The translations under genes and the position numbers were made by a program. Below, one piece after another: positions 28,407-31,767 of a DNA stretch of 64,000 nucleotides; within the stretch, counting starts at the first letter, position 1; every line of letters starts with the position of its first letter. Source of the DNA: Leptospiraceae bacterium (GTDB taxonomy: Bacteria; Spirochaetota; Leptospiria; Turneriellales; Turneriellaceae); contig JANWWS010000013.1 of assembly GCA_025055765.1 (NCBI GenBank), positions 248,001 to 312,000 on the forward strand, in the 5' to 3' direction. The notes beneath the pieces are model-generated. The model ran no database searches. It saw only the letters and a list, made by a program, of their open reading frames with translations, and had not been told where the DNA came from.

Positions 28407-29321
28407 CTACAACTTCTCTAAGTAACTCTTTAAGACCGTTGCACTTTTTTCAAGCTGCAGATTTTCTTCGTCCGACAATTTAATGCCCACAAGTTCAATC
28501 GCACCAGCTTCACTCACAACATGGGGTAGCGAAAGCGCTGTACCAAAAAGAGGGTTGTAGCGGCTTATCGTATAGATGGCCTTTTCTCGGCGCAGAATGC
28601 TTTCCGTTATCCTTGCTAACACAGCACCTATCCCAAAGGCTGTAGCCCCCTTTCCCTCAATGATCTTATAAGCGGCGCGGCGCACGTTTTCATCAATAAT
28701 TTTCTTTTCCTCTTCGCTAAAGGCAATCCGTCGGCTACGACAAAAATCCTCAAAACCCAGCCCCGCAATGGTAGCTCCCGACCACACAAGGACCTCACTA
28801 TCCCCGTGCTCACCCACCACATAGGCATGTACATGTCGAGCATCGACACCAGCAAAACCCCCTAAAAGCGCTCGAAAACGGGCAGTATCAAGAGTTGTGC
28901 CACTGCCAAACACCCGAGGGTTTGCACCACCTGCTTCTCGTTCCGTTAAAGCGGTAATAATGTCAACGGGATTTGTGGCAACAATTAGTATAGCCCCACT
29001 TTCATGCCGCAATACCTGAGGCACAATTTCACGAAAAATAGCAGCATTGCGTTCTAAAAGGGCAAGCCGGCTTTCCCCTGGTAATTGGTTTACCCCCGCA
29101 GCTAATATAACCACCTCAGCCCCCTTGAGATCGGCATAGGTACCTGCATAAACCTCTACCGGATTGGAAAAGGGGGCTGCGTGAAGCATATCATGGGCTT
29201 CTGCTACAGCCTTTTTCTCATTTTTGTCAATTAACACAAGCTCACGACAGCTCCCGCGCAAAACCATGGCATAACCTGTTGCCGAACCCACATACCCGAC
29301 ACCCACAATACCTACTTTCAT
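28407..29321 (-). CDS. ldh: L-lactate dehydrogenase
   Basis: A 304-residue NAD-dependent 2-hydroxyacid dehydrogenase of the lactate/malate family. GVGYVGSATGYA is the NAD motif and VLIDKN the acidic end of strand 2. The specificity loop reads AAGVNQLPGESRL; Gln where malate dehydrogenase has Arg argues for lactate/pyruvate. TNPVD, the substrate Arg in LDTARFR and the catalytic His in GEHGDSE are intact. A TTGACA lies about 60 bases upstream of the ATG. It forms a two-gene unit with gloB. Confidence 0.9.
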   Translation of the reverse strand: MKVGIVGVGYVGSATGYAMVLRGSCRELVLIDKNEKKAVAEAHDMLHAAPFSNPVEVYAGTYADLKGAEVVILAAGVNQLPGESRLALLERNAAIFREIVPQVLRHESGAILIVATNPVDIITALTEREAGGANPRVFGSGTTLDTARFRALLGGFAGVDARHVHAYVVGEHGDSEVLVWSGATIAGLGFEDFCRSRRIAFSEEEKKIIDENVRRAAYKIIEGKGATAFGIGAVLARITESILRREKAIYTISRYNPLFGTALSLPHVVSEAGAIELVGIKLSDEENLQLEKSATVLKSYLEKL

Positions 29322-29402
29322 ACGCTTTTTACCCCGCCGTTAAGCAAAACGCTACATGGGCTTTTTTGAAATCCAAATATGTCAAGATTTTTATAAAAAT
29401 TT

Positions 29403-29431
29403 TTGCCGCTTGGGCCAGAGATGCATATTTA
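29403..29431 (+). promoter_or_regulatory. Promoter giving a leaderless fmdB-type mRNA
   Basis: TTGCCG (29403-29408), a 17-base spacer and TATTTA (29426-29431) end six bases before the ATG at 29438. The predicted transcription start is the A of the ATG, and there is no Shine-Dalgarno sequence. Confidence 0.5.
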
Positions 29432-29437
29432 TGTATC

Positions 29438-29716
29438 ATGCCAAGCTATGACTATCGTTGCCAAAATTGTGGGCATGTCATGGAAGTCGTACATGGCATG
29501 AACGAAAAACCAGAGCTAAGCTGTCCCTCCTGCGAAAGTAAAAATATGGTTAAACTTATCTCAGGAGGAACAGGGGTTATCTTTAAAGGTAGTGGCTTTT
29601 ATGTAACTGACTACAAAAAAGCCGCATCCAAAAGTAATGAAAAAGAATCAAGCACAGCAGGCACTGCTACCGCAGAAAAAACCCATACCTGCACAGGAGC
29701 CTGCAGCCACAGTTAA
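29438..29716 (+). CDS. FmdB-family zinc-ribbon regulatory protein
   Basis: A 92-residue protein starting MPSYDYRCQNCGHVMEV, the characteristic FmdB/CxxC_CxxC_SSSS start. Two CxxC pairs (CQNC, CPSC) would hold one zinc. KLISGGTGVIFKGSGFYVTDYK is the standard second half, shown here in outline: GTG, KGSGFY and DYK. The tail is low-complexity (Ser, Thr, Ala, Glu) and ends in CTGACSHS, which adds two more cysteines. FmdB-type proteins are proposed regulators of one-carbon or amide operons, but the function is unproven. A longer frame from 29279 is dismissed because of the family start and the promoter. Confidence 0.85.
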   Translation: MPSYDYRCQNCGHVMEVVHGMNEKPELSCPSCESKNMVKLISGGTGVIFKGSGFYVTDYKKAASKSNEKESSTAGTATAEKTHTCTGACSHS

Positions 29717-31767
29717 GAAAGCCCCACGGAGGTCATAGCGATTTTCTCCAATGTTGCTTCCATGACCTCCTCTATATCTTTTCCCTCTACAATAACATCA
29801 TAAATACCCCGAGCTATGGGATAGTTTTCGTAGGAAAGATGGACAAGTCGCGCCAGTGCCTGGATACCATGTAGGCCTGGTAATTTCTTTTCTTTAGAGG
29901 CTTTGCCGTAAATAAAATCATGTCCCCATTGGCGATCGCGGGCATCTTGCCCAAAGCAGCTAAGCATAAGATCGGTCATCCCAGAGAGCCCAGCAAAAGT
30001 GGATTTCCTACCACCCAAGGCTACTCCTAATCTTGTCATTTCTTGAAAAATCCGATGGGAAAAGTGGAACAGGGTATTGTCGCTGTTTCCACCTAAGTTT
30101 TTCTCATAATAGCCATCCAAAAGTCCAATGCCCAGGGCATAGATATTCTTTAGGGCTCCCCCCAATTGCATCCCGCGAACATCATATGGATTATAAGCAG
30201 CTCTAGTAAAGGTATAGCCGGTATTGAAGTAACGTGTGAGAGGTTGTACTAAACTTGTATTAATTGCCGCAAATTCAAAGCCTGTAGGTTTTCTCTCCAT
30301 GATTTGGTCAGGGTAGTTAGCGCCAGCAAGGGCACAAAATCGCACTGGGTTAAGCCCATAGATATGCTCTAAATCATCAAAGATGAGACCATAGCGTGAA
30401 CTGGTAAAGCCTTTCACCACATTGATAATGGGACTCCAGTTTTCTTGCAGAATTGGGGCAAGCTCTCGATAATAGTCGTCAATTTCCCATGACCTTGCGG
30501 CTTGAATGTATATCGTTGCTTTGCGTAGATCTTCGGGATTTGCCGTAAAGGATATATTAGGAGGTAACTTAAACAAGGGAAAATGGTCTTGGTCTAATCT
30601 CAGTTCATTAAACAAAGCAGCTTTTTCTTTATCAGGTATGTAAATCTTAATCTCTACGGGATGGTTGGCCATAACTGTAGCATAAGCTACTCCATAGGGA
30701 GAATGGCCTATTACCGCCACATGCTCCTTTGGCTCCTTAGGTCGACTTATTAATATGTTTTCTTTTGTTCCAAAAGAGAGGCTTTGGTAAAGGTTCCGGT
30801 AAGTACCGTGCATGTGACGATGTAAATTTTGACCCACGAGGAGAGCTAAATTATCGATAATAAACTGCTTCTTGTTAGCATCATCAGGAACCTCTAGGCG
30901 ATCTACGCTGTCGGGGAGGCTTTTCATTTGCTCTGGGGGTAGCTTCCCCACAAGTATGGGGCGCCCAATCGAAACCTTACCCGTGGCAATGTTAAATAAA
31001 AAGGAATCTGTCGGTAGAATTTTGTCAGTCCCTGTAAGAGAAAATGGTACAATAATCTTATTGGTGACGTAGTGATAAACCGTATCCACGAAACCCAAGA
31101 GCTTACCGGTGCGCGAACGGGTACCTTCTGGGAAGATCGCAATTACCTTGCCTTGCTTTTGCAGTTCATGGGCCATGCGAAAACTGCGCATGTTGATCCG
31201 GGTCATAAGATCAGCCATTGCGGGGTTTTCGATCATATCCCGCTTGCTGCACACAAGTAGACTGTGAATCATATAAACCCCAAGCCGGGTAATGTCTGGC
31301 AAAAAGACAAGCCTGCCTGCAATAAAAACCATGCTGTCAGCGAGCTTACGTGCCTCTCCCCCTTGGCGGTAGAGAAGGCCATACATCGCTGCCGTATCCA
31401 TGTGGGAGAGATGATTAGAAATTATGGTGATAGGATACTTACCCAATAAGGGAAGGATGTAGCGTAGGTTTTCTGTGCCCTCTAAGGTAAAGTTACGTAA
31501 AAGAGGATCTAGAAACTCCATCATGAAATCACGTATTTCATCCCGCCTCTCCGTATAGACCCCTACCTCATCAAGTTTGGATTCATCCTCAAAAGTCTCC
31601 ATTACTCTGGGCATGGGTGTGGCTTGAGAAAGTTGTAGGTATTTGGTTAAAAGCTCTCGCGCTCTTTGCTCACTAAGTCCCTGCGCGACAAAAATTTCTA
31701 TATTTTTGTAAAACTCTCTTACCCAAGGAGCATGGGTCACTGGTTCAGGCCGGATATCCTTGCTCAT
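29713..31767 (-). CDS. Bifunctional glycerol-3-phosphate acyltransferase / glycerol-3-phosphate dehydrogenase fusion
   Basis: One 684-residue protein carries two enzymes. Residues about 60-340 are an acyltransferase with the HX4D site His119-Asp124 (NHLSHMD), FPEGTRSR (212-219) and a VCSKRDM...NMRSF stretch (172-196) resembling plastid-type soluble G3P acyltransferase. Residues about 347-684 are GpsA-like: a nucleotide motif VIGHSPYG (altered from GAGAWG), GGALKNIYALGIGLLDG with the catalytic Lys, and GLSGMTDLMLSCFG. Together they could turn dihydroxyacetone phosphate into G3P and acylate it to lysophosphatidate, the entry of phospholipid synthesis. The loss of the second Gly of the nucleotide motif leaves it open whether the dehydrogenase part is active. 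It ends on a TTAA shared with fmdB. Confidence 0.82.
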   Translation of the reverse strand: MSKDIRPEPVTHAPWVREFYKNIEIFVAQGLSEQRARELLTKYLQLSQATPMPRVMETFEDESKLDEVGVYTERRDEIRDFMMEFLDPLLRNFTLEGTENLRYILPLLGKYPITIISNHLSHMDTAAMYGLLYRQGGEARKLADSMVFIAGRLVFLPDITRLGVYMIHSLLVCSKRDMIENPAMADLMTRINMRSFRMAHELQKQGKVIAIFPEGTRSRTGKLLGFVDTVYHYVTNKIIVPFSLTGTDKILPTDSFLFNIATGKVSIGRPILVGKLPPEQMKSLPDSVDRLEVPDDANKKQFIIDNLALLVGQNLHRHMHGTYRNLYQSLSFGTKENILISRPKEPKEHVAVIGHSPYGVAYATVMANHPVEIKIYIPDKEKAALFNELRLDQDHFPLFKLPPNISFTANPEDLRKATIYIQAARSWEIDDYYRELAPILQENWSPIINVVKGFTSSRYGLIFDDLEHIYGLNPVRFCALAGANYPDQIMERKPTGFEFAAINTSLVQPLTRYFNTGYTFTRAAYNPYDVRGMQLGGALKNIYALGIGLLDGYYEKNLGGNSDNTLFHFSHRIFQEMTRLGVALGGRKSTFAGLSGMTDLMLSCFGQDARDRQWGHDFIYGKASKEKKLPGLHGIQALARLVHLSYENYPIARGIYDVIVEGKDIEEVMEATLEKIAMTSVGLS

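Follow-up and report, generated by a model that had tools for sequence, protein, structure and literature searches.

Bacterial membrane lipid synthesis has its first committed step in the acylation of glycerol 3-phosphate (G3P), usually carried out by PlsX/PlsY or PlsB on G3P supplied by GpsA or glycerol kinase. A gene in a Leptospiraceae genome raises the question of what is accomplished by a single protein that joins an acyltransferase to a GpsA-like domain, an arrangement for which we found no published description in the literature. The gene (29713..31767, minus strand) lies in the stretch of DNA analyzed here, a 64,000-nucleotide segment of one contig referred to below as the window.

The preliminary description of this locus proposed a protein whose N-terminal half resembles plastid-type soluble G3P acyltransferase (GPAT) and whose C-terminal half resembles GpsA, and domain and fold comparisons bear this out. 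The gene starts with ATG and runs as one uninterrupted frame of 684 amino acids, its assignment resting on the single open frame, its domains and 30 homologous rows. Pfam recognizes an Acyltransferase domain (PF01553, residues 94-233, E 1e-11) followed by NAD_Gly3P_dh_N (residues 350-503, E 2.5e-13) and NAD_Gly3P_dh_C (residues 529-670, E 4.8e-29), all three exceeding the curated cut-offs. The acyltransferase (AT) half (residues ~14-311; 30835..31728, minus strand) consists of N-terminal helices and the PF01553 core, and scores 24 bits against the PlsC model TIGR00530, under the cut-off of 102.95. NCBIfam GpsA models cover the GpsA-like half (residues 348-675; 29743..30726, minus strand) almost end to end, but the top score of 165.8 bits falls below the cut-off of 257.

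AlphaFold models were built from the window protein and five relatives. Since the AT half was weak in the full-length model (pLDDT 65 overall), it was also modelled alone (pLDDT 74); its top PDB matches are the plastidial GPATs 1IUQ, 1K30 (both squash) and 8IA1 (Myrmecia), at E 9e-13 to 3e-11 over 315-331 columns, with human GPAT1 and PlsC ranking behind, and a profile comparison likewise matches plastid-type GPAT (E 6e-7). The C-terminal half folds onto the GpsA structures 1z82, 3k96 and 1n1e (target TM 0.77-0.83). No operon or conserved neighbours were found around the gene, which stands alone, without flanking genes common to its relatives; a small zinc-ribbon open reading frame (FmdB-like by eye; 29279-29716, plus strand) converges on it with a 4-base overlap.

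The fusion and its family are real. Of 393 genomes of the phylum, 40 contained a match at E 1e-30 or better, all of them in the window's own class, so that the fusion or fragments of it occur in 40 of the 48 genomes of that class, a few of these carriers holding contig-edge fragments or split frames. An assembly artifact, a frameshift join or chance is ruled out by full-length fusions, at 51-80% identity, in many independent genomes. The fusion is present throughout the window genome's own family (f1) except in genus g2, and in families f5 and f6 except in one 0.9-Mb genome; none was found in families f2-f4 in the phylum search. Named relatives are metagenome-assembled Leptospiraceae, Leptospirales and Spirochaetia. 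No record from cultured Leptospira appeared among the matches returned, for which the scan method may be the reason, and a search of a plasmid collection returned only ordinary GpsA matches. The copy in genome G179 (C3:235150-237145) is broken near residue 280 into two frames that overlap, perhaps by sequencing errors, and a 317-residue stand-alone paralog of the AT half (~36% identity), without the GpsA part, occurs in genus g3 (L066; G048, 1089463-1090407).

Strong purifying selection is evident, from sequence comparison, on both halves. For one pair of fusions (L023/L028) dN is 0.034 in the AT half and 0.062 in the dehydrogenase half, with synonymous sites near saturation; neither half is therefore decaying, the dehydrogenase half changing somewhat faster.

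How far the active sites are preserved was read from 30 distinct homologous fusion sequences, aligned over their length. In the AT half, both residues of the HX4D motif (H119-D124) and the motif FPEGTRSR (residues 212-219; APSGGRDR in squash GPAT) are invariant in all 30. The squash phosphate-pocket residues are presumably those numbered K193/H194/R235/R237, and two of the four differ: an arginine pair matching the G3P-phosphate arginines is kept in 30/30, but the H194 position is Asp in every fusion and the K193 position is variable (R in 16, L in 9, K in 5). In chloroplast GPATs, four positively charged residues bind the phosphate of G3P (PMC4785142). Compared with these plastid-type (ATS1) soluble enzymes, the AT half thus shares HX4D, the two pocket arginines and the overall fold, N-terminal helices included, and differs in its low identity (~17%), its altered pocket and its junction to a GpsA-like domain. 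It is likely to be an enzyme of first acylation.

The nucleotide loop of the GpsA-like half, as had been pointed out, reads GHSPYG rather than GxGxxG (residues 354-359; 30691..30708, minus strand), Ser356 replacing the second glycine. G354 and S356 are kept in 30/30 fusions, all of which fit the pattern GxSxx[GSA], the third glycine often being Ser or Ala. We did not accept that this motif signifies an inability to bind cofactor: 6-phosphogluconate dehydrogenase, which uses NADP, has GMAVMG at its nucleotide motif, and a deviant glycine motif is for that reason weak evidence of lost cofactor binding.

Three residues equivalent to those of the human GPD1 active site, K452 (K120; 30412..30414), K540 (K204; 30148..30150) and D599 (D260; 29971..29973), all on the minus strand, are kept in all 30 fusions, and the N205 equivalent in 28. 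The phosphate grip is different: R610-D611 (29935..29940, minus strand) correspond to R269-N270, with asparagine changed to aspartate in 28/30 and the preceding residue being R in 20, H in 7 and K in 3, while the T264 equivalent is Ser or Ala in every fusion. The position of Leishmania P94 is changed from Pro to Arg in 27/30. Twelve stand-alone GpsAs of the same class retain K120/K204/D260, N205, T264/R269/N270 and the second loop glycine. In human GPD1, K120, K204 and D260 serve the carbonyl chemistry of dihydroxyacetone phosphate (DHAP) and R269 and N270 grip its phosphodianion; the R269A mutation causes a 4.5 million-fold loss in kcat/Km, and N270A costs 5.6 kcal/mol (PMC12874384). Relative to GpsA (1z82, 3k96, 1n1e), the fusion domain thus has in common the complete two-domain fold and the K120/K204/D260/N205 set, but is set apart by the loop serine, the altered T264/R269/N270 grip and a long separate branch in the tree.

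That the carbonyl residues are invariant and the grip changed suggests, therefore, a domain that keeps the reaction chemistry with a rebuilt substrate handle. The preliminary description had held that a separate intact gpsA together with loss of catalytic residues would refute its reading of the protein; the window genome does have a separate gpsA, but the catalytic residues have not been lost. Its other suggestion, a sensor of G3P, fits poorly, since in a sensor the reverse would be expected, with the ligand grip conserved and the catalytic residues free to vary. The changed grip and loop glycine also argue against an ordinary DHAP reductase. On balance, the evidence tips towards a reductase half that is active on some C2 ketone.

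Which other genes could perform these steps? It had been proposed that the fusion commits carbon to lipids with no free G3P. Against this as the route taken by the cell, the window genome also encodes a stand-alone gpsA (contig C13), plsX (C11), two plsY (C32, C20) and glycerol kinase, so that free G3P and another route for its acylation exist; other acyltransferases are present too, and the fusion as sole gpsA or GPAT of this genome is ruled out. The relatives present a different picture. PlsY and PlsX were sought in 15 genomes, including three without the fusion (G017, G069, G115). PlsY was not found in six of the fusion carriers (G080, G085, G120, G199, G055, G179), nor PlsX in five of these six, among them G080, G085, G120 and G199. 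Both PlsX and PlsY are present in roughly half of the carriers examined, and PlsY in all three fusion-less genomes. Within this sample the absences are thus confined to fusion carriers except for PlsX in G017; that genome, whose listed completeness is 100%, has PlsY but neither a PlsX match nor the fusion.

Most fusion carriers have a separate intact gpsA, but several lineages lack a stand-alone copy. None was found in G080, G085, G120 or G199, which are drafts of 81-95% completeness, all four having the same absences. The fusion is the only PF07479 gene in G080, G120 and G199, and in G085 it is accompanied only by the reverse-order fusion described below. These four genomes have PgsA above cut-off and so evidently make phospholipid; the idea, drawn from PF01066 counts, that they had lost PgsA and need no G3P is ruled out by PgsA and by the presence of glycerol kinase (G080, G085 and G120; partial in G199). 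A PlsC-like enzyme passes the TIGR00530 cut-off in G080 and G120 and is the best PF01553 match in G085 and G199. No PlsB-like acyltransferase was found in G080 or G120, the other acyltransferases of G080 being PlsC-like or unassigned. The absence of PlsX and PlsY suggests that, in these carriers, G3P (or DHAP) is acylated by the AT half; for the reductase half the loss pattern is weaker evidence, because glycerol kinase is present.

For the whole protein, we give an even chance to its being a bifunctional starter enzyme for glycerolipids that would convert DHAP to lysophosphatidate (LPA) within one polypeptide. The plastid-type AT half would attach the first acyl chain to a three-carbon phosphate, and the GpsA-like half would reduce the C2 ketone with NAD(P)H. 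The intermediate between DHAP and LPA would be G3P if reduction came first and acyl-DHAP if acylation did, with a slight lean to the latter order because the carbonyl chemistry is kept and the grip for the DHAP phosphate rebuilt; we infer both activities, the step order, the cofactor and any channelling. Against a starter enzyme of either kind stand the N270/R269/T264 changes, the changes in the AT pocket and the window genome's own gpsA, plsX and plsY, and the glycerol kinase of the gpsA-less relatives could supply G3P without GpsA.

A somewhat unlikely alternative leaves catalysis to the AT half, as a functional G3P acyltransferase, and gives the GpsA-like half a non-catalytic role, as a regulatory or scaffolding domain sensing the redox or triose-phosphate state. 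The deviant nucleotide motif, the altered grip, the Pro to Arg change at the Leishmania P94 position, the intact gpsA of most carriers and the somewhat faster evolution of the dehydrogenase half would all agree with such a domain, but invariant carbonyl Lys, Lys and Asp beside variable ligand-grip residues reverse the pattern expected of a G3P sensor, and several lineages have no stand-alone gpsA.

Taken as an account of the starter enzyme's chemistry, an acyl-DHAP pathway in one bacterial protein, in which the AT half would acylate DHAP and the rebuilt GpsA-like half would reduce acyl-DHAP to LPA, is rather unlikely. The acyl-DHAP route occurs in peroxisomes and yeast; we found no description in the literature of this route in bacteria or with a GpsA-type reductase. 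The grip changes should, moreover, weaken binding of acyl-DHAP too, as its phosphate is retained. Quite unlikely is the other form of the starter enzyme, that of the preliminary description, with an ordinary NAD(P)H-dependent DHAP reductase passing G3P internally to a G3P acyltransferase. The intact K120/K204/D260 equivalents, the arginine kept at R269 in 20 fusions, the window protein among them, and the carriers without stand-alone gpsA agree with it, but the changes of N270 to Asp and of T264 to Ser or Ala are family-wide, R269 is lost in a third of the fusions, single mutants at this grip are severe in human GPD1 (PMC12874384), and the NCBIfam score is sub-threshold. Most doubtful is a lineage-specific lipid other than the phospholipid backbone, the AT half using another acceptor (a lysolipid, an amino-lipid or another phosphate ester) and the reductase another ketone: the invariant Asp at H194, the rebuilt reductase grip and the PlsX and PlsY already present in about half of the carriers tested would suit it, but the best fold match is to plastidial GPATs and, in the sample tested, the PlsX/PlsY absences fall among fusion carriers, apart from PlsX in G017.

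The starter-enzyme reading also gains context from a second protein (~800-877 codons) in many f6 genomes (L057, L058, L059, L060, L065), in which a GpsA-like domain precedes a PlsB-like acyltransferase (PlsB matches at E 1e-24 to 1e-26). Like the window fusion it holds the same two functions in one polypeptide and belongs to the same class, but it has the opposite order, a different acyltransferase (~21-26% identity between the two, which are distantly related), the ordinary R269/N270 grip and mostly an intact GxGxxG. Its GpsA-like domains form their own clade, in a tree that cannot tell whether they have a common divergent ancestor with those of the window fusion; that the order and the acyltransferase family both differ suggests two separate fusions. 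The reverse-order copy in G179 is broken, like that genome's split fusion, again perhaps by sequencing errors. The independent reverse-order fusion suggests that the two functions have been coupled repeatedly. Among the structure matches of the GpsA-like half is also the Dunaliella salina protein 6IUY, which we take to be a phosphatase-GPDH fusion; it too joins GPDH to the enzyme of a neighbouring step, but its partner is presumably a phosphatase giving glycerol, unlike the acyltransferase of the window fusion, which would give lipid.

Within one bacterial class, then, two types of acyltransferase are joined to GpsA-like domains in opposite orders, and some lineages of this class appear to have abandoned the usual PlsX/PlsY route. 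The fusion allows a direct coupling of backbone synthesis to first acylation to be tested, and is a candidate way into phospholipids that would not depend on G3P.
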